The notes under the pieces are model-generated. The model searched no databases. It saw only the letters and a program-made list of their open reading frames with translations, and was not told where the DNA came from. This document shows, one piece after another, positions 7,791-45,687 of a DNA stretch of 64,000 nucleotides. The DNA comes from Halichondria panicea (lineage: Eukaryota; Porifera; Demospongiae; Suberitida; Halichondriidae): positions 3,301,001-3,365,000 of the forward strand of contig NC_087392.1 in assembly GCF_963675165.1 (NCBI RefSeq). Direction: 5' to 3'. The translations under genes and the position numbers were made by a program. How positions within the stretch are numbered: the stretch's first letter is position 1; every line of letters starts with the position of its first letter.

Positions 7791-7791
7791 G

Positions 7792-8044: not shown

Positions 8045-8200
8045 AAACACAATGTATTCATTTGAGGGTATTTAGCAAACGCTGAGGGTATTAGTAAATG
8101 TCTGAGGGTATTTGACTGAGGGTATGTACTAAACAACTTGTATATACATATTGCTCAGTCATTTAGTAAATACCCTCAGTTCCCTCAAATGTATTTACTA
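8045..8200. repeat. AAATACCCTCAG-type short repeat cluster
   Basis: Irregular repeats of GAGGGTATTTAG and its complement are spaced 15-25 bp apart. The orientation changes inside the cluster: forward up to about 8125, then complement from about 8165. The same motif forms a second cluster at 34,250-34,465. Confidence 0.6.
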
Positions 8201-8233
8201 GTAGGACTTGCTTACAGTATTGCTCATCTGCCA

Positions 8234-9690: not shown

Positions 9691-9741
9691 TTAACATACA
9701 GGCCACTATAGAGCAGAAATCCATCTACTGAAGATCAGATT

Positions 9742-10850
9742 TCTTTGCTACAAGATCGGCTAGATTGCATCCTAACCCTATCTGAACCACCAACAACCAC
9801 AACCAACGGCATTAAAATTACCGACAAACTGAGATTCTTTGTTGGCGACCATCCTGCACAACAGTTCGAGAGAGGGACTAAACAAGGAGGCACATACAAA
9901 TGTGGTGGATGCGGTGCCAGGTTCTCGGACATGCGCCATGGCGAAGCCTAGAAGATTTGCAAAGGATTGCAATACATGGAAAGAGAGGGAAAACAACAGG
10001 CAATATCAATCAACCTAAAAGTTAACGAAATCCGAGAAGAGCTAGACTCCCGAAGTATTAACACAACGAAAGATGAGATGGAAGGTATATTAAAAGACGG
10101 GAGTCCAGCATGTACCAGCATGTACCCACACTTTTACTCTTAAATCCGACTGGCTCACTCACTACTCGATCTTGGATTGTGAGCCTCTTAACCTCTTAAG
10201 GGATAACCTCTGCAAGCAGCTACTGTATCTGTTGAAAGGTGACGTCCGAAAGTCCACTGAAGACATGCTACTGTGAGCACATGTGCAAACTATCCAAAAG
10301 AGCATACTGCTTCTTCTCGAAACTGCCATACAAATTACCCGTCTATTCTATTTACCCTAACGACGGATACTTCAACGCACGTGGGTACACCATGAGCTCT
10401 GCTATGAGCTCATTCACAGATTTTACGCTGGAATGACAAGAGAGAAAATGTTTGGACTTGCTCATGCCCCTGCTCAGTTTGAAATTCTTCCTCTGTCGTC
10501 CTCTGTCGTCCGTGAACACTGAATGCCAAGAGCGTATCTTTAGTCAAGCCAGAAAGACAGCAACAGCTACATCACCCCCAGAACATTGTTTCAACCCTAA
10601 CTCTTCGACTACGAGCTAAAACAGAGCTCAAACCTATTAGCACTATTGTAAACCAAGAAGAGTATTCCACAGTATCAAGGCACGATAATTGAGAAGAGTT
10701 TTGTCGAACGACACTTGAGCAGCTGGAATCTGGAATCAGCACTTGAAACGAATCAGTCCTTTCGTGTGTGGTGGGACTACTCCGACAATGGGTACAGATT
10801 CAATGACAGTGAAGAAGACCAGCAGAGCTACTGCCAGGGTCGTTGGATAG
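9742..10850 (+). pseudogene. C-terminal half of a repetitive marine-invertebrate protein family
   Basis: Plus-strand frames contain QDRLDCILTLSEPP, NGIKITDKLRFFVGDHPAQ, QFERGTKQGGTYKCGGCG and, after several stops and frameshifts, NTECQERIFSQARKTATA. From memory, these motifs occur in this order in a large, functionally uncharacterised protein family that is highly multicopy in corals and sponges. The CxxC pair in YKCGGCG suggests metal binding. The copy is broken by many stops. A 10-bp tandem duplication (10,491-10,510) lies inside it. The corresponding N-terminal half sits next to it on the other strand. Confidence 0.45.
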
Positions 10851-11349
10851 TTTTAAATTGCTCTTCCACTGTGTCTGTGTCGTTATATTCTGCATTCAGC
10901 TTCGAATATAGTTCATCCTTGGACATGTTCTCGATGTCTTCATCTGTGGCCAGTCTGGTGGTTAGTTGTCTGGTTTATCTTAAAGGAAACTTCTCCAAAT
11001 CACCATTGCAAACATTGTATGACACAAGAGTAAAGGGAGAGCAGGGTGACATTTCTCCTGTTCGGACTTGTTCTGTCCATGATTCCTGAATTTTTTTCAC
11101 AGTTGGTGGGACAGGTACAGGTACCCCTCCACACAAATGTCTCTTCCTTTTACTGCCTGGTTGCCGTCCATCTCCAGACTTCTCGGCGAACTCTTTGACA
11201 CAGTTGTCTCCTGGAACATTGTGGTCTCTAGCAAACTTTTGCCAGTTGATTGGAGGTGGAGCAGAAGAGTGTTGTTCCAAGTCATTCAGAACGGCATCAG
11301 GTAGTAGGTGTAGAGTCGATAGAATGGGTAGCTTGCGTTGATATGCCAT
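10820..11349 (-). pseudogene. N-terminal half of the same repetitive protein family
   Basis: The minus-strand frame of 124 codons includes INWQKFARDHNVPGDN, VKEFAEKSG, a basic KRKRH patch and EQVRTGEMSPCSPFT. After one frameshift near 10,980 it continues as RQLTTRLATDEDIENMSKDEL. From memory, these belong to the N-terminal part of the family whose C-terminal motifs lie at 9742-10,850 on the plus strand. The two halves therefore face each other tail to tail, which implies an inversion or two independent fragments. No function is known to me. Confidence 0.45.
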
Positions 11350-12835
11350 TAGAAATGCTTTTGGGGCATTTTCACTTTGAGCTTTTTCTTTACGAGTTTC
11401 TTCTTGGATTCATTGTGTGATAAGTTAATTTAACAAAATCACGTACACCTATAATTATACTCTAATAAATTACTACACAACAACTCTAGCACGTTATTTT
11501 GTAAATCCACTAATTGCAATCCAAGAGCTAGCAGTTGCAAACTCTAAACTCTACACACACACACACCAGCGTATACCTCGCTGGCGCATGCGCAGCGTCA
11601 CTAGTATTGCGTCACTAGTATTGTGTATGCCTTGTCAAATGATTATACAATAAACTGTACTTCTGTACCTATAGATTTACCGATTTACCTGTACACCATC
11701 ACGGTGTCAATAAATGTCTGAAACCCGTCCCTTAACCTCTCCTAGATTATCTAGGCTTTCAGGGTTGATGGAGAGCACTGAATCTCTTTTGCGAGAGTGT
11801 GTTTTTGCTGTTCTCCTGTAGACAGAGCTTTCCATTTCTCAATAGAAAAAACATTCTCATAATAATAATAAAATAAAAAAAATTATTGTTTCTTATCTCA
11901 TATTGTTTCTTATACTCACTGGGGTGCCACGTTTTCTTCCAGTTGAGTAGGAGGGTACTGCAATGACTGCAATGACCCCACCCATTTCCTAGCATTCCTA
12001 GCATCACTGATTGCTAGTACATCGATTTCCTAGCATCACTGATTGCTAGCTAGTATATCGATTTCCTGGAATCACTGATTGCTGACAGTCTGGTCCTTGA
12101 TGCTGATACTCTATTTTTGACCCAGGTGGCGTTCCATATGGATGGACTGTGTGTACCTGTGCTCAACACTGCATGTAGCTCAACACTGCATGAACATCAA
12201 TTCATCACAAATCATCATAAATCATCATGGCCCAAAATGGATGTACAATAAAAGGATTGGTCATCACTCACCAGTTATTATATTGGCCGGGCCAGTTGAC
12301 GTTGAAACGGTGCTCTCGTCGCCAATCCTAGCAATTTCAAATGTTTTTCTAGTCGGATCCATGTACACCTTAGGCTCTATACCATCCATAAGTTTAAAGT
12401 CCAACATCAGATGTGGCTGATCTAGATCTCTATTTTTACCAGTGTATATGGTACCATTGATAAACGAACACCCATTTAGTTGGTTTGGCAAGTACCCTTC
12501 GAAGGGTTCATCGATTGTATTAGCTTGGGTGTAATCAATCTAAGAGCTTACGGAGTTTGTCATAACCATGAGGGATCTGCTCAGAATCATGACTTGGGAG
12601 AGGCTTTTGCGAGACCAATACATTTCAATCGTTGGCAGTTGGCAGATCGTTGGCAGATCGTTGGCAGAATAACAATCATGCACACGCCTTCAAGGGTACG
12701 ACTATCAGCACGTGTGGGACGCTGTGCACCTCTACACTGTGCAGCATACCGATTGGTCTCAAGATCCCATACATGGTGGTGTCATCAGTAACAGGTTGCG
12801 CAGGACCCAACTTTCCCATACCCCAAGCATTGTAT
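11350..12835. other. Intergenic DNA
   Basis: The segment at about 11,470-11,630 (aatccactaattgcaatcc, an ACACAC run, cgtatacctcgctggcgc) is a diverged copy of 28,850-29,020. A 75-codon minus-strand frame at 12,264-12,491 (MPNQLNGCSFINGTIYTGK...) has no recognised family. Repeats of cgttggcagat lie at 12,630-12,665. I see no supported gene. Confidence 0.5.
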
Positions 12836-22970: not shown

Positions 22971-25057
22971 TAACTAATAATCATATTGGACATATCACCA
23001 CGCTTGCTGACCCACACACGTCCCACTTCCATGGCCACCACCCGCCTGCACTTTCGTCACTGTCAGACCCGATGACACACTTTTGTCATCAGGAAGTTCA
23101 TCTCCGTCATCATTGGACAGTGACCCACTTCCATCAGACACCCCCACCCGTTGACATCAGAGAACGATCACTGCTAATTCTAGTTTAGCTATACTACTCA
23201 TCTCCTGGCCTGGTCGTCCTGGTCCATAGCGCATAGCGTCTGGCATAAAGCTTTGGGAGGTATCCTACTATCCCCTCTCCTTCATAGGAGACATCGCCTT
23301 CAAGCTGTTCAAGCACATCGGCACAAGTAAACAACTTGCTGTAAGATGCTAAAAGGTGCTAATGAAATTTTAACATAGCTTGTGATTCTACAGCTCTTCG
23401 TACTCAGTGGCGAGAAATCTGGACTTTTGATAGCAGCTTTGTGGTCATAATAAAGAACTTCAATAAATCCATCATCACTTTAGTTTGCCACTCCAGTCTG
23501 TTGTTAGTGAAATTTAGAAAATTTCCACAATTTGCCATTCGTTCCTAATTGGATGCCAATTCTTTACGACTTCTCTAGCTAGGCTCTGAAATTGAGAGTA
23601 GAGTAGAGTTTAGAGTAATCTTCCTCGGTATGCGTAGGAAAGTTTCTGCAATAGATAGATCCAAACATACAGTCCTGAAGTCACTTCCCTTTCAGGTGTG
23701 GAAAAGACAGATGAGAACACTGGCATTTGGTATACACTGCTTCAAGACGTCCCCATATCTTTGTATAAACAATGGTCTGCTGCAAGGGGTGGTTTTGAGG
23801 TGAAAAAACTACTAGTCTGAGGTTACAACTTCTGCATGTAGAGTCACTGACTTAAGAGATGCTAGACAACAGCCAGGTCTAGCTACTAAGAATATGTACC
23901 TAGTATATATAGTACGTATCTTAGTCATCTACTAATTTAAAGTGCATGCATAGGTCATAGGTCAACTATTGCTGTTGCTGAGTCAGCAATGTTTTGTAGC
24001 CTCGATCGCCTTGTGAAGGAGTTGTGCATACTGAAAGTTCTCACCAGACTGCACTGGGTACCCAATGACTTGCAAGGATGTAGACAACATGAAAAGAATC
24101 ATGTCAAGATTTGCCATGCAAGGGTACTTCAAATGATCACTTACCCTGATTCTTCTCAATTTCTTGCAGGTTACTTCAAGTGTTAAGTGTTAAGGCAAGA
24201 CTCTTACCCTGATATGACAACCTGTAACATAAGGTTACTTCAAGTGTTCAGGCAAGACTCTTACACTGATTTGATTCTTGTCAATTCAAGTGTGTAACAC
24301 ATAGTGCTGGCTATACGACTGTACTCCAATACTCCCCCAGCATTAAATTTTAATCGGCATTATAAAGTCATGGTACCATTAAAATGAAAATGATTGTAGT
24401 TAAAACTGAAAACATTAAACTGTGCTAATGCCTCTCGCCAGCTTTCGCTGAAAAGTATTAGAGTGTTAGTTTCTAAAGTCACTGAGACTTATTTACAAGC
24501 TTGTATTATGTGGCCTTCAAAAAGGAAGAATCTTCCGGGATCTGTAGTTATTGTTAGCTTACCAGGCCTTCAAGAGACAAAGATGATTCTACCAGGAGGA
24601 TCTGGATCTGGATCTTGGATCTCACACATGGGGAATGAGCGCGCATGCGCATTACATCCATAGGAATAATTAAAGGGTGTGCCGGCTACTGTTTTAACAG
24701 ATATTTTTTCTGAGTATTGTAGCTAACAAAAAGCTAGCGCTTTAGTGCAAGGCTAACTCATATGTTGAATAGAAAGTTTGTGCGGACAGATGATGGTGCC
24801 TTCAATGTGAGTCAAACTAGCCATAACTCGAGAAAGAAGCTTTAGATTACTACGAATCAAAATCCACTGTTAGCATTGCAACCGTTGAGCTGGAACAGAC
24901 ACACAACACAGTCAGCTTTACCGTATCCCTCGTGCATAATGAAAATGATTGTGTTAACCCAGACTATGTTATGTTGCAGTTCACTGCCCCCCAATTTTTG
25001 CTATCTTGGTCCACAGCTCGATATTCCACTACATCGCATATAATTTTCTGATTGTAC
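22971..25057. other. Intergenic DNA
   Basis: No gene is supported. An acidic minus-strand stretch at about 23,050-23,160 could be an exon but has no homology I recognise. The short frames at 23,989-24,186 and 24,463-24,663 are anonymous. A piggyBac-like fragment is listed separately. Confidence 0.5.
23166..23396 (-). mobile_element. piggyBac-like element, internal fragment E
   Basis: The stretch from ctgctaattctagtttagc through tcctggtccatagcg and ggtatcctactatcccctc to gctaatgaaattttaacat matches the interior of copies A-C. Both termini are missing. Confidence 0.55.
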
Positions 25058-25061
25058 TTAA

Positions 25062-25878
25062 CCCTTTAACCGCCCCACAATAGTGACTTTTTTTGCGAAA
25101 TTCTAATTCTGCGGTACTTAGGAAGTAGCTCGAACTACGCACATCCCTGTATACAGGAAGAGCTGTAGAATCACATGCAATTTAGTCTAGAAATTTCCAA
25201 GCCACGTTGCTATGTTAAAATTTCATTAGCATCTTACCGCACGCAGTTTATAGCTATGGCTAGGTTGTTTACTTGTGCCGATGCCGATGTGCTTGAACAG
25301 CTTGAGGACAGCAATGGCGATGTCTCTTCTGGTGATGACAGTGCCTATGAATATGAATACCTCCCAAAGGCTACCAGCTTTATGCCAGACGCTGATGAAC
25401 GCTAGCGCTATGGACCAGGACGGTGAAAGACCAGGAGAGGGCTCACTGTGTGACTCTGGCAAGTAGTATAGTATAGCTAGAATATCAGTAGTGAGTATGA
25501 TATAGCTAAAATAGAATTAGCAGTAATGAACAGTCTTTATGTGAGCTTTATGTGAGCTTGTAAATTTCATAGATCGTTCACCGATATAGTAATAGACGTA
25601 CGTATTGTACTTCAAATTGATATATCTTAGCACTGTTACATTCATATGATGTGAAAATCTGAAAATCAAGCTCCTTTATACCATGATCCATAAAAAAAAT
25701 TTTTTGGAGCATTTAAAATGATAAAAACGGGTGAGCGTAATAACCGTGGTTGTTATGGCAACACGTGTTGCACCATTTTATTCCTTGCATTCTATTGGTA
25801 TATGATTGCTAGGCAACCCGATAGAGAATTTACAGACATTTTACTTTACTGTCAATTAAGAATCCGACGGTTAAAGGG
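25062..25878 (+). mobile_element. piggyBac-like non-autonomous element, copy C (complete)
   Basis: It is flanked by TTAA on both sides (25,058-25,061 and 25,879-25,882). The termini are CCCTTTAACCG and its complement CGGTTAAAGGG, an 11-bp TIR. The length is 817 bp. It carries one reading frame but no transposase core, so it would depend on a transposase encoded elsewhere. This is the reference copy for the relics at 3.7, 5.8, 7.6 and 23.2 kb. Confidence 0.75.
25175..25405 (+). pseudogene. piggyBac-type N-terminal ORF remnant
   Basis: The 76-codon frame starts MQFSLEISKPRCYVK, then MARLFTCADADVLEQLED, GDVSSGDDSAYE and FMPDADE. The second part looks like the acidic N-terminus of a piggyBac transposase; translation may begin at the internal ATG (MARLF). 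It stops before any catalytic domain. The homologous frame in copy A supports shared ancestry but not function. Confidence 0.4.
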
Positions 25879-25882
25879 TTAA

Positions 25883-26674
25883 CGACGGAGTAGACGGCTG
25901 ACACTACAACAAACTGAACATCAGAACAAACTGAACATCAGCCATTGCAGCCTGCAAAGTTATAGTATATAGTATCTAGTATAGCTAGAGCAGCTCACAT
26001 TTCACACTAAGACGGCACACTAAGACGGCGCACCTTTGAGTCTGGTAGAGTGTTAAATTGGATCTTATCAGGCAATCTAGCAATCTATATTCATCATAAT
26101 TATTAATACAAATATTATTATTAATACAATAACATACGATACAACAATTAGTGCCTTTCAAGGGTGTGTAGCTCACATCGACATTGAAAAGAAGTTGGTT
26201 AGATTTGCCATGAAAGAGATGCTTTAAATGTCCATTCTTGTTTTCAAAACCGAATAAGGAATGTGTGCACTTCTATCACCATATTATAGTTCAGGGAGCA
26301 AGACGCAAAAATCTATAATCATTTACTCCGCAGCGTTGACTTCAGCTTGAGTTATCCTACTTCCCAACATGATTACTTCCCAACATGATATGAATTGCAC
26401 ACACCAGTGGTGCCAAAAAAGAGACGGCAGGTGATCAATGAGCAGAAGCCAAGTATGTAGTTCTGAAGCTTTCCAGATGTTTCCGAATAGATCTTGGGGG
26501 CCGGCTGAATTCATGGGGGGGAGTTTGCTTCAGAAAAGTCCAAGGTAGAACGGCTCTCTGTGGTTGTTACTCCTTCCAGCACTGCATGCTTATAATACAG
26601 AATTGACTAAGTTGATAATGGAGGTGAGAGGAGATAACCCTTTGACTGGTTGCTGACTTTGACTGGTTGCTGAC
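25883..26674. other. Intergenic DNA
   Basis: No gene seen. Exact tandem duplications occur at 26,359-26,390 (16 bp) and 26,641-26,674 (17 bp). Confidence 0.5.
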
Positions 26675-26986
26675 TCACTTCGGCTTCACAAGCATTACAA
26701 CGATTTCGATTTCAGAATCAGATCTTAAAGTATCGGGCGGGTATGTGAGTGTCGCATTCTTTGTGGAGACAAACCGAGCGGCCATTGAACTGCTATCACA
26801 ATTGATGCTTTGAAGTCCTTGAAAAGAATTTACAACAAGGCGGAGTCTACTAATTTGACACGCTAGAGAGGTGTTTAATATTCGGCTTAGATGGCACGTT
26901 TTCAGTCTAATAGTAGGATCAGACTGGCCACATGCTGGCCACATGCTGACACCACATGCTGACAGTAGACACCATCGGTAGGACAT
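26675..26986 (-). CDS. Uncharacterised 103-codon ORF
   Basis: The minus-strand frame has several cysteines (CHLSRILNTSLACQISRL, SINCDSSS) and ends EIVVMLVKPK before a stop. The pattern could be an extracellular domain, and a frame with a possible membrane segment lies upstream on the same strand (27,305-27,703), but I cannot link them by splice sites. The first ATG is not well supported. Confidence 0.25.
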   Translation of the reverse strand: MSYRWCLLSACGVSMWPACGQSDPTIRLKTCHLSRILNTSLACQISRLRLVVNSFQGLQSINCDSSSMAARFVSTKNATLTYPPDTLRSDSEIEIVVMLVKPK

Positions 26987-27115
26987 TGAAAGGGCAAGAC
27001 AATCCCCACCAGAAAATTGACTACCTGACGCTACAAGTTTTCATCATCAGTCGATACTTCTGGCAGTCCAACAAGCGAATCTCCAACAAGCAGTAATCTG
27101 CAGAACAAAGGATGA

Positions 27116-27335
27116 TTGACACACACCCACACACACACAGAGTCAGTCCACACACAGAGTCAGTCACACACACACAGCACACACACACACACACACACCA
27201 CACAGAGTCAGTCACACAGTCACACAGTCAGTCACACACACACACACAGACACACACCACACACAGACACACACACACACACACACGCACATCGCACACG
27301 CACATCACACACACACACACACACGAAGGAAGTCA
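27116..27335. repeat. CA-rich simple repeat
   Basis: Runs of (CA)n are interspersed with gagtcagt units (ACACAGAGTCAGTCACAC). Frames through it encode HTHTH or VCVCV and are not evidence of genes. Confidence 0.85.
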
Positions 27336-27703
27336 CTCACTTGATAAAACTGACTCAAATGCACCAAGTCGGCAGTGGGCGAACACTTCTTTCCACAAGT
27401 CACGCATATTTTTTTATGGCAGGAGTCTGTCTTTTCAAAAAACCTCTTCAATTTGTAGAAGGTGGGAGGTATTAGATTTTGCTTGGGGGAGATGAATATG
27501 AGGAGACCTATGCATGCACACAACACTTCAAAAACAGTGACCTTTGCACCAGGTGTTGAGTTTGCTGATGTTGCTGATGAAGACGTGGATGTTGAATTTG
27601 CAGTGCTGGTGAAGACGTGGGCGTGGAACGCTGGTGAAGACGTGTTTGTTGAATTTTCTAGAGGGGATATGGCTACATCTGGCGGGGATATGGGTATGGG
27701 CAT
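27305..27703 (-). CDS. ORF with Ser/Thr-rich stalk and possible membrane segment
   Basis: The minus-strand frame has an ATG start (MPIPISPPDVAISPLENS), a Ser/Thr/Asn-rich stretch (about residues 18-50), then VTVFEVLCACIGLLIFI (about 55-71), which is hydrophobic enough to be a transmembrane helix, and a basic tail with CVTCGKKC. It runs into the CA repeat at its 3' end. It could be an exon of a type I membrane protein. No signal peptide is visible and no family is recognised. Confidence 0.3.
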   Translation of the reverse strand: MPIPISPPDVAISPLENSTNTSSPAFHAHVFTSTANSTSTSSSATSANSTPGAKVTVFEVLCACIGLLIFISPKQNLIPPTFYKLKRFFEKTDSCHKKICVTCGKKCSPTADLVHLSQFYQVSDFLRVCVCV

Positions 27704-28576
27704 CTGGTCTGCAATGACAAAAAAAGTGTATACACTCTTGTGGTACTGGCATCCTTGTTCTTGATGGAGTACCCATTGCTGATCGACATCGACATTAGCT
27801 TATTAGCTAGCAACGCATTACACAGCAACTAAGCATATAGTTTTCAGCTTGAAAACTCCCTTGTTTACTAACATTTCCATTCTTGTTAATTGGACACTTC
27901 CAAACTTGATTACTACTGTTGTGTGAACCACAATTACCAAGCAGTACTCAAACCTTGCAAACATGGTATAAACAAGCTTGTGAACTGCTTGAAAACTAGC
28001 TCAAATTACCAAGCAGTACTCAAACCTTGAAAACACAAGCTTATGAACTGCTTGAAAACTTCTGGTTTAGGTAATTAACTTTGGCAGGAATAATTGATTT
28101 CAATTAGCATAACAGCATGAACAATACACAAGTATACAAAGTTAGTGATAATGATACATGAGAGTTTCTGAAATGAGTTTTGTCAAATTAAACCACATCT
28201 GTTAAACATCCGCAGATAATGAATGCATCTGGAGGAGGTAGTACATAATAATATACAGGTCTCACTAGCATTAGCAGGACAAGGTGGTTGTCCCGGCTTT
28301 CTTGATTTTTTTGGCCATGACTGCCCCACCATCCTTCATTACTTTGGCATGAGAGTGTTCAAAACTACATGGAACAAAATAATAAAAAGTGGGATTTTAA
28401 CAGAGATTACTTACGATTAGATCGCCATCCAAGCTTATGTTCAATGATCACAGCTGGATCATCACTGTCATCTGATTCATCTGTGATGAAAGCAGGAGCT
28501 CCAATACTTGACTAATTTGATGTTTCTAAGGGGGTGTGTGTAATGATACTAAATTTAAATGAAAGCACCGCGGGTG
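27704..28576. other. Intergenic DNA with an 80-bp-class direct duplication
   Basis: A segment starting aattaccaagcagtactc at about 27,929 is repeated at about 28,004, each followed by a gaactgcttgaaaact motif. No gene is recognised. Confidence 0.5.
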
Positions 28577-29028
28577 CTGATGCCTCGGTGAAGCTATACC
28601 ACATGCTGTAGCTGCTAGCGCTAGTAGCTTGCGACCGTGTAATGGCTGCTGCATGCTGAACAGCTAGATGCAGCTTTACAGCTCTTTACAGCTCTTTTAT
28701 CACTGTTGCAGCTACCAATAGCTAGCGTTCTAGTGCAGAGCTAACTGCTAAGTAGAGTAGCAACACTACATGGACAAGTTTCGCTTCGCACTGATCTGAA
28801 AAGGCATTCCAAGTAAGCAAATCTAGCCATAACTAGAGAACGAAGCATTATTTTGCAAATCCACGAATTAAAATCCAAGAAAACAATCCAAGAAAACATG
28901 ACTAGAAGCCTATAGAAACTCTTACTTGCACTTCATTTATCCTTGAGCAGCACTCTACACACACACACAGACAGACACACAAACACACTACCGTATACCT
29001 CGCTTGCGCATGCACACCGAGGCATAAT
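28577..29028. mobile_element. Probable MITE with ATGCCTCGGTG termini
   Basis: ATGCCTCGGTG near 28,579 recurs inverted (CACCGAGGCAT) near 29,013-29,023. The right part (aaatccacgaatt, an ACACAC run, cgtatacctcgcttgcgc) matches 11,470-11,600. No coding potential is seen. Confidence 0.4.
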
Positions 29029-29415
29029 AACTATAGTATACTTACTCGAAGACGCCTTGCTCGACACCGACTTTGTTTAGCTTTGGCCGTTCTGCGCTGT
29101 TTTCTTTTTGATCGAGAGACCACTGTCGCCTGATCTGCTCATACTTCCGCTGAACTGCATCTGTACAGTATATATACAACGGAAAACTTGACCCTTAGAG
29201 AAATGTTCAGAGACGACGTTTTTAACCAGCTGACTCTTTACCAGCTGATTATGTTCTGACAAGGAACTAATTTAAAAAAACGAAAGTATGGTTAATAATT
29301 ATAGATTTAATCTCTCGTGTGGTAAAAAATCATCTTAAAAGGCATCGTAAGCGGCTGCTACCAAGTTCTGTAGATGATGTACAGATGTACATAAACTGAA
29401 TAAAATAAAAATTAC

Positions 29416-29690
29416 TTACAGTGAGCTGTCTGGTGACCCTGGCTTTCAGATGTGTCGATTGGTGACATTCTACAATTTATCTCTGGCTCTAGGAGGCTTC
29501 CAGCAGCTGGGTTTCCTTGTATCCCTAGTGTCCACTTCACAAATGAAAAGATTCTCCCTAAGACTTCAACATGTGACGTAAGCATCACCTTTCCAAGATC
29601 TTTTGACGAGCTGCCATATGAGATGTTTAAGAAAAAAATGGATATGAGCGTTTTGGATTCTGCTGGTTTTGGTGGTGGTCCGTAGTTAGT
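29416..29690 (+). pseudogene. HECT E3 ligase C-lobe fragment (G2E3-like)
   Basis: The plus-strand frame reads DILQFISGSRRLPAAGF, then KILPKTSTCDVSITFP, then YEMFKKKMDMSVLDSAGFG. This is the end of a HECT domain, with the catalytic Cys in TSTC at about the expected distance from the C-terminus. An acceptor-like cttacag lies just before it. The rest of the HECT domain is not found upstream on this strand, so this is an exon or fragment. The multicopy G2E3-like HECT proteins of marine invertebrates end in this way. Confidence 0.5.
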
Positions 29691-29834
29691 ATATAACAGT
29701 TCCAACCTTGACATTTTAGCTGCTGTATTACTTCATTGTGTTCATTCATTCATTCATCATCACATTATTCATTCCTTTTTCATTTATTTATTCATTCTTT
29801 CATTCATTCTTATCATAATTATAATAATTGAATA

Positions 29835-31317
29835 TTACATCCAAATACATTGTGAGCAAGTAGCATTAAGATGCTGTCCTGTAGTATGAAGTACGTCGAC
29901 AAAGAGTCCTCTACCATTATCTTCTGCTTCTTCAAGGGGATTTATAGTTTGGAAACTTTGTTTTAAAATTGAGCATGGTATAAACTTAATTCTTGGCACT
30001 GATAATTCTTGGCACTGATACACGTTCTCCTTACGTTCTCCTTCAACATCAGAAGTGTCCACATTAGCTGTAGTACCAAGTTCTTGCTCGCTTGTTTGCA
30101 GCATACCTTCAAAAAAAAGTTGGTATGGAGTTCGATTGCCTTCAGTAGATAAAGGATGATGATTCCAACTATCTACGAAACCTGAAATACATTTGTTTAT
30201 TCGTGGCAGGAAGATCAGATGCAAACAGTAAAGATCCACTTCATTTAAGGGGTCAAGAAGTCCATCACTTTCCAAAGATCGGAAGATTTGGGAAAACACG
30301 GAACCAACACATCTATGAACGTCACGCCAGAGTCTCTCAATTCTTTCATTGTGCACATTCTTTCATTGTGCACAGAACTCCCGGTGATTACACAACTGTA
30401 ATCATTATTGTGTGCAGCAATCATGTACCGCCATACCTCCACATTTTCTCCACCATGATCTGATCTCACATGGTTAGGGACACCATAGTGCCTGATACTG
30501 TCAGTGAAGAGCTGGAGAACAGTTTCTGAACGATTGTTGTCGGTGCATGCCACATAAATGATAGTGCGGGAGAAGCCGTCAATTGAACCATGGATCACAA
30601 AACGCCACCTTATAAGTTTATGATGGCCATCAATGTGCCACACATAATTTGGGTGAGGGGCACTGTACACACGGCGTCTAACAACAGTACAGCGACGCGC
30701 AATGACAGCTTGCTGAGGAACTTTTAATCCCCTTGCTCTTAAGTGGCCGCAAACAAGTCGTTCCCCATCATTCGGGTGATCTCTTTTTATACCACTGATC
30801 ACATCATCTAGCTCATTATCATCCAACATCGACCCATCCTGTGAGGATCTTCCATTTTCTTCTAATCGTCTGTACAAAGTTGCTCTTGATATTCCCAAGA
30901 TAGACGCAATTTTATTCCATTTGTAATGAAGTGATCGTATTTCCAGTATTTCGTCAATGGTAACAGTGGACCTCGCTCGGCCTTCCTGGACGATCAGACC
31001 TGTATATACACATAGACAGTTATGTATCAGAATTATTGTTTATACAGATATAGCACAGTGGAACCTCGTCTTATGTGACAAGGGACTTGCCCGTGTATAA
31101 TTATGGAAACTGAAGTACGTGGTGTTTACCATAGGGTAATGGTAATACCGGCGGTAAACTTTCTGCTAGAGTCTGTCACTGACCTGTCACTAATGGGACT
31201 CTGGTTGGCACCACTTGTTGGCACTTGAGGTAACTGTAACTGACCACTGCTAACTGCTTGCTGAATTGAAACAGCCAGGGCACTAGACAACACTCCAACA
31301 TTCACACCTTCAGCCAT
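29835..31317 (-). pseudogene. Integrase-core (DDE) transposon-derived protein, frameshifted
   Basis: The first exon (31,317 downward) starts with ATG: MAEGVNVGVLSSALAVSIQQ. A second exon begins after an acceptor at about 31,001 and runs to 29,835. It holds a helix-turn-helix (YKWNKIASILGISRATLYRR), then WHIDGHHKLIRWRFVIHG (first catalytic Asp), VRSDHGGENVEVW (second Asp) and, in another frame, ERIERLWRDVHR (Glu). The break is a 17-bp tandem duplication at 30,340-30,373; further duplications lie at 29,988-30,019 and 30,022-30,043. Proteins of this build are multicopy in corals, fish and sponges; their transposon class is uncertain to me. Confidence 0.65.
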
Positions 31318-31400
31318 TCTTGTGGACCATGTGGCAGGTTATCATGTGACTACCACTTGTAATGTAACAAAACCACACCCTGAAAAGCACACATCCTCCA

Positions 31401-32190
31401 CTGACATTTATAAATACCCATTGACATTTATAAATACCCATTGACATTTATAAATACACATGGACATTTATATATACCCATGGACATTTATATATACCCA
31501 TGGACATTTATAAATACCCATGGACATTTATATATACCCATGGACATTTATAAATACCCATGGACATATATAAATACCCATGGACATATATAAATGTCTA
31601 TGGGTATTTATAAATACCTGTGGACAATTATAAATGTCTACGGGTATTTATAAATACCCATGGACATTTATAAATACCCATTGACATTTATAAATACACA
31701 TGGACATTTATATATACCCATGGACATTTATATATACCCATGGATTATATATACCCATGGACATTTTATAAAAATACCCATGGACATTTATATATACCCA
31801 TGGACATTTATAAATACCCATTGACATTTATAAATACCCATTGACATATGACATATATAAATACCCATGGACATATATAAATGTCTATGGGTATTTATAA
31901 ATACCTGTGGACATTTATAAATGTCTATGGGTATTTATAAATACCCATTGACATTTATAAATACACATGGACATTTATAAATACCCATGGACATATAATA
32001 AATACCCATGGACATTTATATATACCCATGGACATTTATAAATACCCATGGACATATATAAATACCCATGGACATTTATAAATACCCATGGACATATAAA
32101 TACCCATGGACATATATAAATGTCTATGGGTATTTATAAATATCCATGGACATTTATAAATACCCATGGACATATATATATGTCTCACTC
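31401..32190. repeat. 20-bp near-palindromic AT-rich minisatellite
   Basis: About 38 units of the type TGGACATTTATAAATACCCA. Each unit contains two self-complementary cores, TTTATAAA and CCATGG, so the array reads similarly on both strands. Several units are inverted (aaatgtctatgggtattt at about 31,592, 31,633, 31,880, 31,919 and 32,119). The inverted stretches recur inside similar neighbour blocks, which suggests a higher-order repeat. No frame is meaningful. Confidence 0.9.
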
Positions 32191-36305: not shown

Positions 36306-37163
36306 AGATTTTTTTAATTACTACTACGTACACAAACTCAGTATGCTTGCTTACTTTTCGATTTTTACAAACATTTCGAGGTGCTGGTCTTCCATCACGT
36401 ACAATTGTTATAAAAAAGCCGAACAAGTGTTAATTGAATTACCGTACTTCTTCTAACAGAGGCCCCCTTCGGAGATTTCTCCCACAAGGCACCATAAAAT
36501 TCATTTGCTATTTCCACTAGGTATTTAAAAGGCGGCATCCATTTAAAAAGGCGGCATCTTATTTAGAAGTACAATACTTTATGTATTATCATAATTATCA
36601 GGACTACGTACTACCTGATTTATGTATAATTATAATTATTTGTATATACAAAATAATCTATTAATAAATTATTATTGTGCAGGTGTGAGGTGTGAGATAC
36701 CAGCTACTTGAAGAGCATCAGCTAAGTCTTTATCTTCAGCTTCTTCCATATTAAGTAACATATAGAGCTTACACACAGTACAGAGAGACAGCAATAGAGA
36801 CAGACACCCAAATTGAAGAGCTTAGACACAGTACAGAGAGACAGCAATAGAAGACACCCAAATTTAAGACTGTACAGAGAGACAGCAATAGAAGATTAAG
36901 ATTAAGACACCCAAATTTAATAGTACACGCACACGTGGTATAGTGGAGTGCGCATGCATAAATAAAAACTCTTTGCACGTACAAAATCTGGAGTAAATTT
37001 TGCACGCGTAAAACAACAGCCTCAAATTTTGCTCCCGTGAATATAGTGAATTTCTTTTGAGTCATATACTGAATGTTTGCGCGCGCTATTTTGTACTTAT
37101 CGCAAGCGCGAATTATGTGTCAACGTTTGGCTTTCCATACTATGGCTTTTCCATACTAGAGTA
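36306..37163. other. Intergenic AT-rich DNA
   Basis: Tandem-like copies of gagacagcaatagaagacac (about 36,785-36,925) followed by acccaaatt are the only structure noted. No gene is recognised. Confidence 0.5.
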
Positions 37164-37541
37164 AGTAATCAAACCTCGGACTATACCTATATTCGGACGC
37201 GTTTTCCATGGACTCAAAGCAGCTATCCAGATTTTAGCCACATCTACAAGTCACTGGTGCTTGGTACTACCTAGCAGCCAACTCTCAGCCTGTTCCTCAC
37301 AACGACGCACTGGTCACGAGCTCTCAAAAACGAGTCCGAAATAACCGAAATAATCAAAATACGGACGAAGGGACACTACTTTAGACTGCGTAGCTTGAGA
37401 TATTTCTAGTTTCTGTGCCTCCTGTACTTCTTCTTAGCTAGATCTACCATCATGCAAAAAATCAGCAGTGGCAGCTGCACAACAAACTCCAGAAACCAGA
37501 CTGAAAATAGCAGCCCCACCCACTAATTTAGGATCTCGGAC
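37164..37541 (+). repeat. Left long terminal inverted repeat
   Basis: It begins agtaatcaaacctcggact and ends ttaggatctcggac. The complement is at 44,655-45,034, differing by scattered substitutions and small indels. Confidence 0.85.
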
Positions 37542-37918
37542 GCATGTGCAATGCATATATAGGCAGATCTACACGTGTTAATGAGCTAGTCTATGCGAGA
37601 GTCTATGAGCTATTAGCCAAAAGTCTAAAAGAAAAACTCTCTACCTGAAGGACAAAATCAAAGGAGGGGCAGAGAATCGGTGGATTTGTTTGTAAGTGCC
37701 ACACTAGATCTACATACAGTAGACTATAACTAGAGTGTCTTTATGTGATGATGTTTTGTGTGTATACAGATTGTTAGTAATTAACTAGGTATGGCTGAAG
37801 GCTATATTTTAAGAAGTAAGCTTGCATCACGTCCATCAACACCAGCAGTTTGACGGTAGATTTACTCACCAACGACCGCTGTACAAGTCATGGGTGGATG
37901 ACAGTATGAAAAAAAGCT

Positions 37919-39920
37919 ATGGAAGCAGTTGTCAAGAATGGAGCAAGTGTTAGAGAGGCAGCAGTTTGCTTTGGTGTGCCCAAGTCAACTTTGGGGGATC
38001 GAATCAGTGGCAGAGTTCAACACGGTGATGTCAGTGGCCCCCTAAAATACCTCTCAACTGCGGAAGAAAATGACTTAGCCAAATTCTTAGCCAAATTCTT
38101 GATAAAATGTGCTGGTATTGGATATCCTAAGACAAGATTAGAAGTTATATCTCTTGTCCAAACGATTATTGATTATAAAGGGATTCACTCAACTGTTACG
38201 GCTGGTTGGTGGCAGAGATTTATCAAGCGAAATGCGAACATCACTTTAAGGGCCCCTTCTCCACTATCAAATGCTCGAGCATATGCAACAGATCCTGATA
38301 TCATGAACAGGTACTTTGATCTACTTGAGGAGACTTTGTTACGGTATGAACTGAAAGATAAGCCGTGTTTAACATGGATGAAACTGGCCTCCCCATGGAT
38401 CCTAAGGCTTCTAAAAGCGTTTACAGAAAAGGAGAAAAAATCCTTTAGCACGCTCTAGTGGTAATAAATCCCAGACGACAGTAGTAGCCTGTGTGAGTGC
38501 TGCAGGCTATTGTATGCCACCTTTGGTGATCTTGAATCGGAAGAGTGTTCCGAGCTGCTATAAGGAAGGAGAAGTTCCTGGGACCAAATATGGCCTGTCA
38601 CCAAAAGGAAGGATGGATTGACCGTGACTTGTTTCACCAGTGGTTTGCTTTTCATTTTCTTCGATATGCTCCTCAAGAACGTCCCTTATTGCTGCTTCTT
38701 GATGGCCACTCCAGCCACTTTTGCCCGGAAACAGTTCATCTAGCTGATGAACATGATATAGTTGTATTTATTCTCCCTCCAAACTTATTCTCCCTCCAAA
38801 CTCTACCCACCTATTGCAGCCTTTGGATAAGGGGACATTTTCCCCTTTAAAGACTTATTGGAAACAGGAGTGTCACGAATTTATGAGCAAAAATCCAGGC
38901 GAAGTAGTGTCCCGTTTTACCTTTTCCAAAATTTTGGGAAGATCATGGGAAAGATGTATGGGAAAGATGTATGAGATTATCCAATGTGCAAGCGGGATTT
39001 AAAGTAACCGGTGTGTACCCTTGATCGTGAAGCAGCTTTCAAGCAAATTAATATGCCTTCTGGTGTTGCCAAAAGTTTTTCTCTGCCGTATCAACCCATG
39101 TTTAGTCCTGCGCCCAGGAAAAAGAAAGCTGCAGCTATACATGTAGATCTAGTACGTTATTCAGAAGATGATGATATCAGCTCTGAAGAATCGTTCAGTG
39201 ACGTACGAGCAGTACATACACCTGTAGGTGGCAGTTTTGATTATGAGAGTGCAGCACGAGAACCTGGTTTTGGTGAACATGCCAAGATGCCACCCTATAC
39301 GTCTAATGGTGATACGGATGACAACAGTTCCAGTGACACTGATCGTGTGACACCTTTAATTTACTGCAGCCAAACCAAAAAAATGCTGAAAACACCCATC
39401 CCACCTCCAAGAAAAGTTGATCCTTTGAAAGTAAAATCTTGTGGTAAAATTCTCACTAGCAGCGAATGTATGGCTATTATGGATAAAAAAAAAGAAGAGA
39501 AAGATGAAAAGGAGGCTGAGAGAAAGCGTTTGCAGGCTGAGAGGAAGCAATTGAAGGCTGAAAACAAGCGTTTGCTGGCTGAAAAACGAGCTTCGAAGCT
39601 ATCAGCCAAGAAATCGGGAAAGAGTGTTTCCACAAAAGTGTCTAAAGCTCAGCATTCCTTATGTGTTGAAAACCCACCTGAACCGGTTTTTACTGCTAAA
39701 GAACTTGAACTTTTTACCACCAGGTTTGAAAATGGTTTTGACCTCACGCATGATGACCGATATAACTTATGGTTAAAAGAAAATGGATCTCCCCAGAATG
39801 GTGTGTATAATAGTGTTTGGTATACTGCAGAATGTGCTATAATCATGTTTCTATTGTATTTAGCCAGGCAAAAGCGAGTTACGAAGCCTACTTTCAAAGT
39901 GAGAGAAAGCATTGGTCAAG
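37919..39920 (+). pseudogene. Tigger/pogo-like DDE_1 transposase
   Basis: The N-terminus (MEAVVKNGASVREAAVCFG, VPKSTLGDRI) is a psq-type HTH. A CENPB-type HTH follows (WWQRFIKRNANITLR). The catalytic domain is in pieces: NMDETG lies in a shifted frame near 38,375, DGHSSHF at about 38,700-38,720 and QPLDKGTF at about 38,815-38,838, giving the DDD triad of DDE_1. Apparent 1-bp losses near 38,370 and 38,438 and tandem duplications at 38,074-38,097 (12 bp), 38,768-38,801 (17 bp) and 38,945-38,970 (13 bp) break it. The last part (39,011-39,920) has an acidic linker, a Lys/Glu-rich coiled coil (AERKRLQAERKQLKAENKR) and FTTRFENGFDLTHDDRYN-LW, then a GT donor at 39,921. Confidence 0.75.
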
Positions 39921-39971
39921 GTGGTTACTTCTGCTATTTAATATTGACATAGCTAATATCCATAATTGCAG

Positions 39972-40562
39972 ATTGGAGTGATGCTGATGAGTTGTGCCAC
40001 GTGACGGGGATAGATTCAAGTGGCGTATCTGGTGTGTTGATTATTGATTTAGCTATAATCATACAGCTACATAATTATGTTATATATACTTGGATAGCAC
40101 TTGAATTGAATAGCCTGCAACATGTCCGCTTAACACGTCATAACTTTCGCTCAATTTGGCGATGCATGAGGCTATTTCTATTGAGCATAATTATAGTACT
40201 GCAGTCGACTATACTCGTGATTAATACATTTTCTAACAGATGAAGAGCCAGTCAAGTCCAAGGTACTGTCTGGTAAGTAGGTTTATTTTATAATTATATG
40301 CGACCAATTCGGATGATGTGCCTTTAGTTGCAGAGCAAAGAAGGAACGCTGGAGTGAGGGCAACTAGAGCTAACCCATCTGGTGAGTGAGTAAATTTAAT
40401 TATCCCCCTTCATATTAGGACCCACCCCCAAAGCAAATCTACCCCCCTGAAACAATTTAAGACTCTTAAAGGTAGCTCTGAACTCCGTCATATTCACATG
40501 TATATTATTAGGAAGCAGTGTTGGATTGAGAGCTACTAAATCTACTAGAGCTAACCCGTCAG
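39972..40562 (+). CDS. Chain of small phase-1 exons extending the transposase frame
   Basis: After the donor at 39,921, exons with AG...GT borders lie at 39,972-40,031 (60 nt), 40,240-40,272 (33 nt), 40,334-40,381 (48 nt) and 40,512-40,562 (51 nt). All lengths are multiples of three and all borders are phase 1, so the transposase frame continues: WSDADELCHVTGIDSSGVS, EEPVKSKVLS, QRRNAGVRATRANPS, then SSVGLRATKSTRANPS. The last two are shorter relatives of the repeated exon in the array that follows. Four consecutive symmetric exons joining in one open frame is strong sequence evidence for real splicing at some time. Confidence 0.65.
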
Positions 40563-40611
40563 GTTAGTGGCATATGTTGTACGTCGCATTCACATACACG
40601 TCTATTTTTAG

Positions 40612-43600
40612 AGCCCGTAAACAGTGTTGGAGTGAGAGCTACGTTGGAGTGAGAGCTACTAAATCTACTAGAGCTAACCCGCCAGGTTAGTGGTTCATGG
40701 TACCATAATTATGTTGTCGCATTCACATACACATCTATTTTAGAGCCCGTAAACAGTGTTGGAGTGAGAGCTACTAAATCTACTAGAGCTAACCCGTCAG
40801 GTTAGTGGTTTATGGTACCATAATTATGTTGTCGCATTCACATACATTCACATACACGTCTATTTTAGAGCCCGTAAACAGTGTTGGAGTGAGAGCTACT
40901 AAATCTACTAGAGCTAACCCGTCAGGTTAGTGGTTCATGGTACCATAATTATGTTGTCGCATTCACATACACGTCTATTTTATAGCCCGTAAACAGTGTT
41001 GGAGTGAGAGCTACTAAATCTACTAGAGCTAACCCGTCAGGTTAGTGGTTCATGGTACCATAATTATGTTGTCGCATTCACATACACGTCTATTTTTAGA
41101 GCCCGTAAACAGTGTTGGAGTGAGAGCTACTAAATCTACTAGAGCTAACCCGTCAGGTTAGTGGTTCATGGTACCATAATTATGTTGTCGCATTCACATA
41201 CACGTCTATTTTATAGCCCGTAAACAGTGTTGGAGTCTAAATCTACTAGAGCTAACCCGTCAGGTTAGTGGTTCATGGTACCATAATTATGTTGTCGCAT
41301 TCACATACACGTCTATTTTTAGAGCCCGTAAACAGTGTTGGAGTGAGAGCTACTAAATCTACTAGAGCTAACCCGCCAGGTTAGTGGTTCATGGTACCAT
41401 AATTATGTTGTTGCATTCACATACACGTCTATTTTTAGAGCCCGTAAACAGTGTTGGAGTGAGAGCTACTAAATCTACTAGAGCTAACCCGTCAGGTTAG
41501 TGGTTCATGGTACCATAATTATGTTGTCGCATTCACATACACGTCTATTTTATAGCCCGTAAACAGTGTTGGAGTGAGAGCTACTAAATCTACTAGAGCT
41601 AACCCGTCAGGTTAGTGGTTCATGGTACCATAATTATGTTGTCGCATTCACATACACGTCTATTTTTAGAGCCCGTAAACAGTGTTGGAGTGAGAGCTAC
41701 TAAATCTACTAGAGCTAACCCGTCAGGTTAGTGGTTCATGGTACCATAATTATGTTGTTGCATTCACATACACGTCTATTTTAGAGCCCGTAAACAGTGT
41801 TGGAGTGAGAGCTACTAAATCTACTAGAGCTAACCCGCCAGGTTAGTGGTTCATGGTACCATAATTATGTTGTCGCATTCACATACACGTCTATTTTTAG
41901 AGCCCGTAAACAGTGTTGGAGTGAGAGCTACTAAATCTACTAGAGCTAACCCGCCAGGTTAGTGGTTCATGGTACCATAATTATGTTGTTGCATTCACAT
42001 ACACGTCTATTTTTAGAGCCCGTAAACAGTGTTGGAGTGAGAGCTACTAAATCTACTACAGCTAACCCGCCAGGTTAGTGGTTCATGGTACCATAATTAT
42101 GTTGTCGCATTCACATACACGTCTATTTTAGAGCCCGTAAACAGTGTTGGAGTGAGAGCTACTAAATCTACTAGAGCTAACCCGTCAGGTTAGTGGTTCA
42201 TGGTACCATAATTATGTTGTCGCATTCACATACACGTCTATTTTTAGAGCCCGTAAACAGTGTTGGAGTGAGAGCTACTAAATCTACTAGAGCTAACCCG
42301 TCAGGTTAGTGGTTCATGGTACCATAATTATGTTGTCGCATTCACATACACGTCTATTTTAGAGCCCGTAAACAGTGTTGGAGTGAGAGCTACTAAATCT
42401 ACTAGAGCTAACCCGTCAGGTTAGTGGTTCATGGTACCATAATTATGTTGTCGCATTCACATACACGTCTATTTTATAGCCCGTAAACAGTGTTGGAGTG
42501 AGAGCTACTAAATCTACTAGAGCTAACCCGTCAGGTTAGTGGTTCATGGTACCATAATTATGTTGTCGCATTCACATACACGTCTATTTTTAGAGCCCGT
42601 AAACAGTGTTGGAGTGAGAGCTACTAAATCTACTAGAGCTAACCCGTCAGGTTAGTGGTTCATGGTACCATAATTATGTTGTTGCATTCACATACACGTC
42701 TATTTTAGAGCCCGTAAACAGTGTTGGAGTGAGAGCTACTAAATCTACTAGAGCTAACCCGCCAGGTTAGTGGTTCATGGTACCATAATTATGTTGTCGC
42801 ATTCACATACACGTCTATTTTTAGAGCCCGTAAACAGTGTTGGAGTGAGAGCTACTAAATCTACTAGAGCTAACCCGCCAGGTTAGTGGTTCATGGTACC
42901 ATAATTATGTTGTTGCATTCACATACACGTCTATTTTTAGAGCCCGTAAACAGTGTTGGAGTGAGAGCTACTAAATCTACTAGAGCTAACCCGTCAGGTT
43001 AGTGGTTCATGGTACCATAATTATGTTGTCGCATTCACATACACGTCTATTTTATAGCCCGTAAACAGTGTTGGAGTGAGAGCTACTAAATCTACTAGAG
43101 CTAACCCGTCAGGTTTCATGGTACCATAATTATGTTGTCGCATTCACATACACGTCTATTTTTAGAGCCCGTAAACAGTGTTGGAGTGAGAGCTACTAAA
43201 TCTACTAGAGCTAACCCGTCAGGTTAGTGGTTCATGGTACCATAATTATGTTGTTGCATTCACATACACGTCTATTTTAGAGCCCGTAAACAGTGTTGGA
43301 GTGAGAGCTACTAAATCTACTAGAGCTAACCCGCCAGGTTAGTGGTTCATGGTACCATAATTATGTTGTCGCATTCACATACACGTCTATTTTTAGAGCC
43401 CGTAAACAGTGTTGGAGTGAGAGCTACTAAATCTACTAGAGCTAACCCGCCAGGTTAGTGGTTCATGGTACCATAATTATGTTGTTGCATTCACATACAC
43501 GTCTATTTTTAGAGCCCGTAAACAGTGTTGGAGTGAGAGCTACTAAATCTACTAGAGCTAACCCGCCAGGTTAGTGGTTTATGGTACCATAATTATGTTG

Positions 43601-44161
43601 TCGCATTCACATACACGTCTATTTTAGAGCCCGTAAACAGTGTTGGAGTGAGAGCTACTAAATCTACTAGAGCTAACCCGTCAGGTTAGTGGTTCATGGT
43701 ACCATAATTATGTACCATAATTATGTTGTCGCATTCACATACACGTCTATTTTTAGAGCCCGTAAACAGTGTTGGAGTGAGAGCTACTAAATCTACTAGA
43801 GCTAACCCGTCAGGTTAGTGGTTCATGGTACCATAATTATGTTGTCGCATTCACATACACGTCTATTTTAGAGCCCGTAAACAGTGTTGGAGTGAGAGCT
43901 ACTAAATCTACTAGAGCTAACCCGTCAGGTTAGTGGTTCATGGTACCATAATTATGTTGTCGCATTCACATACACGTCTATTTTTAGAGCCCGTAAACAG
44001 TGTTGGAGTGAGAGCTACTAAATCTACTAGAGCTAACCCGTCAGGTTAGTGGTTCATGGTACCATCTGTTGTCGCATTCACATACATGTGTATTTTTTGG
44101 CCCAGGAAGCAATGTTGGAATGAGAGCTATTAAATCTACTAGAGCTAACCCAACCCGTCAG
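40612..44161 (+). repeat. Tandem mini-exon array (57-nt exon + ~60-nt intron, ~30 units)
   Basis: The period is about 116-118 bp. Each unit holds ctattttTAG, then a 57-nt block from AGCCCGTAAACAGTG to AACCCGTCAG, then GTTAGTGG. In phase 1 the block encodes a 19-residue unit, EPVNSVGVRATKSTRANPS. I count 30 units from 40,612 to about 44,044, plus a diverged end unit at 44,106-44,161 with 56 nt. Variant sites (TAGAG or TATAG acceptor, GTCAG or GCCAG, GTCGC or GTTGC) recur in blocks, which indicates higher-order duplication. Units with a 17-bp duplication (40,626-40,659), an 8-bp loss (near 41,232) or a TATAG acceptor would break the frame. Confidence 0.85.
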
Positions 44162-44654
44162 GTTAGTGGTTTAATAGTACCGTATTGAAATTGGTAAAGA
44201 GCCCACCCAAGTGTGCTGTACATTTCTGGTTCATATATAGTCAAGTTCCTAAATGACAATGTCACTATATATGCATGTTACTCGTCTCAATTAACGTCAT
44301 GTACAAACGCAATAAAAAGAAATAGTGATTAGGGAGTTCCATGTATTTACCCTGTAGTGCTCGAGGACAATTCTTTTTGTTCTGCTACTGATTGCTCTGT
44401 ACAAAAGAGCGGGATAGAGTTCCCTGTGTGGATCAGTTGTGATGTGTGCTCCAGGTGGTATCATCTTTACTGTATAGGACTGAAGAAAACCAAGAAACAG
44501 TTTACTTGTGTACAATGTATATAATGAACAGTAAGCTTGTGTAGATCTATATTCAATGTGTATAGTTCTGATTAAATACAGTATACTAACAGTATACTAC
44601 CTTTCTGGGCTCTGGTAGAGATCGATTTTCTTTTAACCATTAAGTGAACTCTGT
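44162..44654. other. 3' part of the 7.9-kb transposon, no gene
   Basis: After the last unit's donor (gttagtgg) I cannot find a convincing terminal exon. A 72-codon minus-strand frame at 44,297-44,515 is anonymous. Confidence 0.4.
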
Positions 44655-45034
44655 GTCCGAGATCCTAAATTAGTGGGTGGGGCTGCTATTTTCAGTCTGG
44701 TTTCTGGAGTTTGTTGTGCAGCTGCCACTGCTGATTTTTTGCATGATGGTAGATCTAGCTAAGAAGAAGTACAGGAGGCACAGAAACTAGAAATATCTCA
44801 AGCTACGCAGTCTAAAGTAGTGTCCGGATAACGGTACCTTCGTCCGTATTTTGATTATTTCGAACTCGTTTTTGAGAGCTCGTGACCAGTGCGTCGTTGT
44901 GAGGAACAGGCTGAGAGTTAGCTGCTAGGTATTACCAAGCACCAGTGACTTGTAGATGTGGCTAAAATCTGGATAGCTGCTTTGAGTCCATGGAAAACGC
45001 GTCCGAATATAGGTATAGTCCGAGTTTGATTACT
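44655..45034 (-). repeat. Right long terminal inverted repeat
   Basis: Complement of 37,164-37,541. It starts gtccgagatcctaaatt and ends gtttgattact. Confidence 0.85.
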
Positions 45035-45687
45035 TTTGTTGTATGCAATAATTAAACAATGCAATAATTCAACAACAATTGTGGCACTGATGGATGAGTG
45101 GTTCGAAATTGCAGGCCAAACTGTTCGATATTCCCACGTACAAAATACCAACCAAGGTGCGGAATTTTGCGACAAAATATATTCTTTTTTTTTACAAAAA
45201 ACGTGTCGAATACACTGCTAGAAAATTGGAAAGTATCGAATCAAAACATACGCTGTCAAACTGTGATGCATGTTACAAGCAACAGAAATCGTTTCCTAGT
45301 AAACCACTGTATACCACACCAGTCTGTATCATCTGTCTGGTCACAATCACAATCACGCACTTCTTCAGTCTATCACGTACTTCAGTCTACAACACATCAA
45401 TTATATACATAATTAATAGGCTAACTACAAACTGTTAAGCACATACATGTACATGTACCTTCACATGTATGACATCGTCGTCATCAATAGCAGACTTATA
45501 GCACTGGAAAGCACTGAACTGTTTCCATCCTCATTCTCCGAACTGTCAGAACTGAGGTCTGTTAAGCCTGAGGCTACATGGACCATCAAATGTAATGCTA
45601 CACACCTACACTTTTCAACACTTTTGTTGCATACTTACAAATCCCGAGAAGCATAGATGCCGAGATAACTTCCAAATCTTTTGTGTT
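45035..45687. other. Intergenic DNA
   Basis: Overlapping anonymous frames (45,094-45,438) have no domain. No gene is supported. Confidence 0.45.

Follow-up and report, generated by a model that had tools for sequence, protein, structure and literature searches.

A tandem mini-exon array as a probable length-variable part of a pogo-like transposase gene in the sponge Halichondria panicea

Most transposase genes are short and have a simple structure. In a 64,000-nucleotide stretch of the genome of the sponge Halichondria panicea (hereafter the window; 3.30-3.37 Mb of contig C16, in a genome of 131 Mb and 39 contigs), a transposase gene is followed by about 30 tandem copies of a short repeat, which raises the question of whether the repeats belong to the gene or are a satellite that happens to lie behind it. 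A preliminary description of the locus took each repeat to be a small exon with its own intron and the array to be the tail of the transposase. The analysis reported here indicates that the locus is a pogo-like transposon and that the array probably belongs to its transposase gene, where it most likely encodes a flexible segment of variable length. This interpretation is drawn from sequence comparison, and its parts are considered in turn below.

The element and its transposase gene

Tandem Repeats Finder (TRF) identified a repeat of period 116 at 40643-44151, with 30.3 copies and 95% matches, in agreement with the array of about 30 units of 116-118 bp that had been described. When the array was parsed by acceptor and donor, 32 units were obtained in the window: the array opens with a 51-nt unit and closes with one of 56 nt, and between them lie 30 units of the 57-nt type. 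The proposed unit, a 57-nt exon plus an intron with its own acceptor and donor, was thus recovered 30 times; the exon is exactly 57 nt long in 24 of these, 55 nt in four, 74 nt in one and 47 nt in one. The frame-breaking lesions that had been noted (TATAG acceptors, a 17-bp duplication and an 8-bp loss) are real in the window and are absent from the units parsed in two other copies of the element, described below. The window array matches itself exactly over up to 626 bp at an offset of 924; therefore, multi-unit blocks were duplicated together.

The array is enclosed by a pogo-like DNA transposon that extends from about 37159 to 45040 (about 7.9 kb). Its terminal inverted repeats (TIRs) are about 370 bp long and 97-99% complementary, the arms at 37172-37352, 37346-37374 and 37371-37544 pairing with 44652-45027. 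The genome was searched with the TIR, the transposase and the array, and at least three copies were found, copy counts from genome searches being lower bounds: the window copy, the C13 copy (L054), which is about 5.4 kb long, and the C14 copy (L055), in which about 0.5 kb of inserted DNA splits the right TIR. In C13 and C14, TA is present at both ends, which, together with the TIRs, is the arrangement of pogo elements. On the left side of the array, over 37171-40500 in the window and the corresponding positions elsewhere, the three copies differ by 0.4-1.0% substitutions, plus indels. They align at 96-98%, yet differ in the number of 57-nt-type units between the two flanking 51-nt units, with 30 in the window, nine in C13 and four in C14.

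The transposase frame is unbroken over 674 codons in the C14 copy and is frameshifted in the window and C13 copies; the window frame is disrupted by tandem duplications of 12, 17 and 13 bp and by other indels. The 674-residue C14 frame matched HTH_psq at 34 bits and DDE_1 at 79.4 bits, and its catalytic triad is DD35D, with 35 residues between the second and third D, inside the pogo range of DD29D-DD59D. The presence of both domains and of this triad makes the transposase pogo-like. The assignment was based on domains, D spacing and TIRs with TA; within the superfamily, the element may belong with either Passer or Tigger.

Within one TIR pair, all three copies have the same order of parts: a transposase exon that closes with a phase-1 donor (AATG/GTGTGT, after 39800), symmetric phase-1 mini-exons, each accompanied by a short intron, and an exon for the PHD finger that is entered through a phase-1 acceptor. 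The four exons of 60, 33, 48 and 51 nt that had been placed ahead of the array were located with the phase-1 borders claimed for them, and these splice borders are identical across the three copies. The PHD exon matched Pfam PF00628 at 27.4 bits (cut-off 24) and is present in every copy with one residue difference. When the C14 copy is read as spliced, there is a single open frame of 873 aa that comprises the transposase, nine mini-exons (60, 33, 48, 51, four of 57, and 51 nt, in that order) and the PHD finger. The preliminary description was right to place the array behind the transposase, but the gene may continue beyond the array, where a PHD exon of the same phase follows. The transposase and the array had been recognized in that description, while the TIRs, the PHD exon, the two other copies and the diverged relatives were overlooked. 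A shorter terminal exon (Table 1) was considered as the gene end and was demoted to a second-choice alternative once the PHD exon at 44358-44524 turned up.

The window copy itself is decaying; the preliminary description had considered that the array might be. Its transposase is broken and seven of its 32 units are out of frame, leaving 25 of 32 in frame as against 11 of 11 in C13 and six of six in C14; the difference between the window and the other copies together (17 of 17) is not significant alone (P = 0.08). The search for an intact copy elsewhere was thus rewarded, with all units in frame in both other copies and an unbroken transposase frame in C14.

Length changes and splice borders in the array and its relatives

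When the genome was searched at the protein level, at least 74 matches were obtained (66 of 142 candidates scored), of which the diverged ones are mostly 40-55% identical. The 4 kb downstream was read at 16 of these places, which fell into 10 groups by all-against-all blastn. Tandem mini-exons of other sequence, delimited by their splice borders, are present in six of the 10 groups (Table 1), where the tested units are multiples of three and open in phase 1; similar arrays were judged by eye in two further groups, represented by L059 and L068. Over the 4 kb downstream, no array was found in the L062/L069 group and no repeat in L062 or L066; in L069 there is one duplication, along with a PHD segment and an Ulp1-like one. 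The unit sequences, compared by eye, differ among groups and often have a high content of Ser, Thr, Pro, Lys and Arg. Sister copies carry different numbers of units: three in L058 vs. nine in L071 (in the stretch read), four in L056 vs. eight in L070, and nine in L064 vs. eight in L067.

The frame test covered 10 exon classes from seven groups (C13 and C14 plus relatives). The decayed window copy was excluded, and L059, L068 and L069, judged by eye, lay outside the test. All 76 pattern-matched units are multiples of three in length without a stop in phase 1, as are two L071 units missed by the pattern. In repeats free of coding constraint, as the preliminary description pointed out, frameshifts should be as common in the exon as in the intron part. 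This was not the case: distinct exon length changes were multiples of three in 10 of 10 instances and intron changes in one of 16 (Fisher P = 2.1e-6), one of the 16 being the dissimilar intron of 130 nt that precedes the first 51-nt unit. The 10 exon changes derive from five of the seven groups (the window family, L057, L058, L060 and L063). The proposal that a symmetric exon-intron unit was amplified behind the transposase is supported by this frame constraint and by the in-frame units of C13 and C14. Furthermore, when sites were scored with approximate splice matrices at one locus per class, the donors ranked on average among the best 13% of GT sites for nine of 10 classes and the acceptors among the best 13% of AG sites for all 10.

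PHD segments also accompany the arrays of several relatives. A segment entered in phase 1 lies 3' of the array in L057, L064/L067 and L056/L070, and a PHD segment is likewise 3' of the array in L058. Pfam scores exceed the cut-off for L057 (30.6 bits), L058, L063 and L069 and fall below it for L064 (21.6 bits), L056 (18.6 bits) and L059.

If the mini-exons are spliced together, they would supply a segment that is probably disordered, basic and rich in Ser/Thr and that, in the window family, separates the DDE domain from the PHD finger; its variable length would be set by the number of units and perhaps also by splicing. Because intact units are multiples of three with phase 1 at both borders, the gain or loss of units by unequal exchange or slippage, or their skipping in splicing, would leave the downstream frame intact, and the array would grow by duplication of exon-intron blocks. 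The segment may serve as an adjustable linker or tail, or may contact nucleic acid. How far this extends beyond the one family is evenly balanced: the pogo-like transposons of this lineage may repeatedly amplify a small transposase-gene exon of symmetric phase, different in each group, as a length-variable module. Jointly with that reading, and with the same even weight, the module may in several groups link the transposase to a PHD chromatin reader, its exon count changing fast and splicing adding to the variation. A family with up to tens of tandem mini-exons would, if true, offer a natural series for the origin of tandem exon arrays and a test of how splicing handles 30 near-identical exons with introns of about 59 nt. 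Exon duplication would be tied to the birth of a satellite, and the fusion with a PHD finger suggests chromatin-reading transposases.

Table 1. Predicted exons and other features of the element (positions in the window), and mini-exon lengths in its diverged relatives
Feature	Position	Strand	Basis or remark
Left TIR, 5' neighbour TA	37159..37544	+	outer end set by three-copy comparison
Transposase exon 1, frameshifted in window copy	37791..39800	+	97% to C14 copy
Exon 2, 60 nt, phase 1-1	39972..40031	+	identical in three copies; splice-scored
Exon 3, 33 nt, phase 1-1	40240..40272	+	three-copy comparison
Exon 4, 48 nt, diverged repeat-unit form EQRRNAGVRATRANPS	40334..40381	+	three-copy comparison
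Exon 5, 51 nt, first unit of array-like form GSSVGLRATKSTRANPS	40512..40562	+	unit parsing, three-copy comparison
Tandem array, 30 units of 57-nt-type exon EPVNSVGVRATKSTRANPS plus intron of about 59 nt	40563..44161	+	TRF, unit parsing
Exon of last array unit	44106..44161	+	56 nt in window, 51 nt in other copies
Possible alternative terminal exon EPTQVCCTFLVHI*	44200..44240	+	open in three copies; AATAAA at 44311
Terminal exon, PHD finger, phase-1 acceptor CCCTGTAG	44358..44524	+	stop codon ends 44524; ATTAAA at 44571
Right TIR	44652..45040	-	outer end worn in window copy; TA-flanked in C13 and C14
L056/L070			mini-exons of 63 nt
L057			mini-exon classes of 57-66 and 69-78 nt
L058/L071			mini-exons of 87-117 nt
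L060/L061/L065			mini-exon classes of 48 and 30-39 nt
L063			mini-exon classes of 51-57 and 84-99 nt
L064/L067			mini-exons of 90 nt

Other features were seen in the relatives. Segments resembling Ulp1-type (C48) peptidases adjoin the PHD finger in L058, L059, L063 and L069; those of L059 and L063 scored below the Pfam cut-off for C48, and those of L058 and L069 were seen by eye in translations. One mini-exon of L060/L061 reads PVGRPKKTG, which resembles the core of an AT-hook; Pfam gave no match for it. A segment 3' of the L057 transposase (about 2900-4000) resembles a DIRS-/Crypton-like tyrosine-recombinase gene, as judged by eye from its translation. The mini-exon array of L067 is split by an insertion of about 400 bp between 1004 and 1455.

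The window is also rich in short duplications, which disrupt its transposase and some of its array units. Exact tandem duplications of 10-20 bp number 82 in the 64-kb window, some of them in minisatellites, vs. four in 40-kb controls, a density about 10 times higher, with 17 bp as the commonest period and the highest densities at 1-12000 and 24001-32000. Markov shuffles of 49 kb contained 0-2 tandem duplications of 8-30 bp. The C13 stretch L054 is also rich in short tandem duplications (eight in 10 kb) and the C14 stretch L055 has none. A local process prone to duplication is one reading of their density in the window.

Alternative accounts of the array

Several observations weigh against reading the array as coding. 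The joining of the mini-exons into one mRNA is itself inferred from the sequence, and a search with the window tail against 5.8 billion proteins (among the best candidates, about 8000, and limited in length) matched solely P0001, a transposase that is 99% identical and whose match ends before the tail. The exon borders were picked by eye ahead of the frame test, to which L064 and L056, having no exon length changes, contribute nothing; when the window copy is included, the test weakens to 10 of 14 vs. three of 20 (P = 0.0013). The donor of L056/L070 is weak, with a mean rank of 57% of GT sites, and one of the six units of L065 no longer fits the pattern. The PHD segment is located 5' of the array in L059 and L063, so that the linker role is not general to all groups; the mini-exons of these two would form a tail rather than a link, or part of another transcript. 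Changes between units are mostly nonsynonymous, by 16 to four in L064/L067 and by six to one in L056/L070, so that the segment is not conserved in sequence and gives no visible sign of purifying selection on its residues. Of the two checks on the exons suggested by the preliminary description, then, lengths keep the frame, whereas in the larger classes synonymous changes are outnumbered, and residue-level selection was dropped as support for a coding array. Finally, tandem duplications are common, occurring by a crude criterion in six of 23 control tiles vs. 12 of 16 relatives, a mildly significant difference (P = 0.003), the automatic count having overlooked L060 and L064, both of which bear arrays. 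In a separate count, repeats were found in four of 13 window tiles and were short-period or GT-rich by TRF.

The possibility was considered that the array is a non-coding satellite, that is, an ordinary tandem repeat of a 3' UTR (untranslated region) or intron that grew by slippage, with its splice and frame features due to chance or to descent from a former exon. The absence of visible selection on residues and the frequency of duplications in control tiles both favor it, as does the precedent of tandem repeats within the transposon Tetris that can expand to satellites (PMC4079207). It is nevertheless rather improbable, as it is the exon lengths and not the intron lengths that are frame-constrained in unrelated arrays, splice borders are preserved in nearly all units, and an in-phase PHD exon lies behind the array in three copies and in three other groups. 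Somewhat less improbable, though still unlikely, is that the mini-exons and the PHD finger constitute a second gene with its own promoter, unjoined to the transposase. The transposase frame of C13 and C14 can indeed run on into the first intron and stop there (after 674 codons in C14), and Ulp1-like and PHD segments precede the mini-exons in L059 and L063. However, exon 1 ends with a usable phase-1 donor that is followed by phase-1 exons, and a gene model of the sponge Amphimedon has repeats and transposase in one protein. An array that acts as DNA, providing repeated binding sites for the transposase or a host factor as has been proposed for the inverted repeats of Galileo, has comparable repeats of foldback elements in its favor (PMC4079207) and is very improbable here. 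The array lies inside the gene and not at the ends of the element, and the unit sequences vary among groups while the phase is constant. Moreover, array and TIR have no common word of nine or more bases and two 8-base words in common, vs. 2.8 expected from shuffles, and repeated TIR-type binding sites were rejected on the lack of longer common words. The array is thus best regarded as part of the transposase gene.

Comparison with known systems

Pogo elements are described as 1.2-5.2 kb long, with TIRs mostly of 40 bp or less and of 392-856 bp only in insects, and HTH_psq is one of their five types of DNA-binding domain (PMC7386202). The present element resembles this superfamily in its HTH_psq and DDE_1 domains, its DD35D triad (as in Passer), its TA target site and its TIRs. 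It is unlike the pogo elements of that account in its length of about 7.9 kb, its TIRs of about 370 bp and its predicted multi-exon gene with a mini-exon array and a PHD finger; the words intron, exon and tandem do not appear there. The C13 copy, at about 5.4 kb, also exceeds the length range, which is descriptive and no criterion. In everything tested other than this range the element agrees with the pogo superfamily.

In the open-licence PMC literature, no report was found of tandem exons in transposases or of pogo joined to a PHD finger, which does not establish their absence in print, and likewise none of symmetrical exons or exon duplication in sponges. The combination of a transposon with tandemly repeated exons had a sole match there, PMC10526429, on schistosome micro-exon genes. 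These resemble the element in having many short exons, but are host genes and not transposons. The foldback element Tetris has variable-number tandem repeats within a transposon, and its repeats are the source of a satellite; they sit in the TIRs, however, and the middle of Tetris is without apparent coding capacity as far as PMC4079207 describes it.

A parallel is seen in a protein model of Amphimedon queenslandica (LOC109590340 isoform X7; P0038), with a transposase that is 42% identical and a C-terminal tail that has nine TLTG motifs spaced exactly 16 residues apart. Here, too, a homologous transposase is followed by repeats of equal length, which differ in sequence from those of the window, and no PHD finger was noticed in the model. 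At the level of the protein model, the 16-residue repeats agree with mini-exons of 48 nt. A search of the protein database with the Amphimedon tail matched solely P0038 itself among the best candidates (about 8000, limited in length). Four public HTH_psq-DDE_1 transposases (P0005, P0006, P0007 and P0013) have long Arg/Ser-rich repeats between the DDE domain and a C-terminal motif, and such in-frame repeats are an alternative route to a variable segment in this family.

Finally, the PHD finger has its counterpart in POGZ and POGK, in which a pogo transposase is fused to another nuclear domain, zinc fingers and KRAB in their case (PMC7386202). Those are domesticated host genes, whereas the fusion described here would lie within a mobile element.

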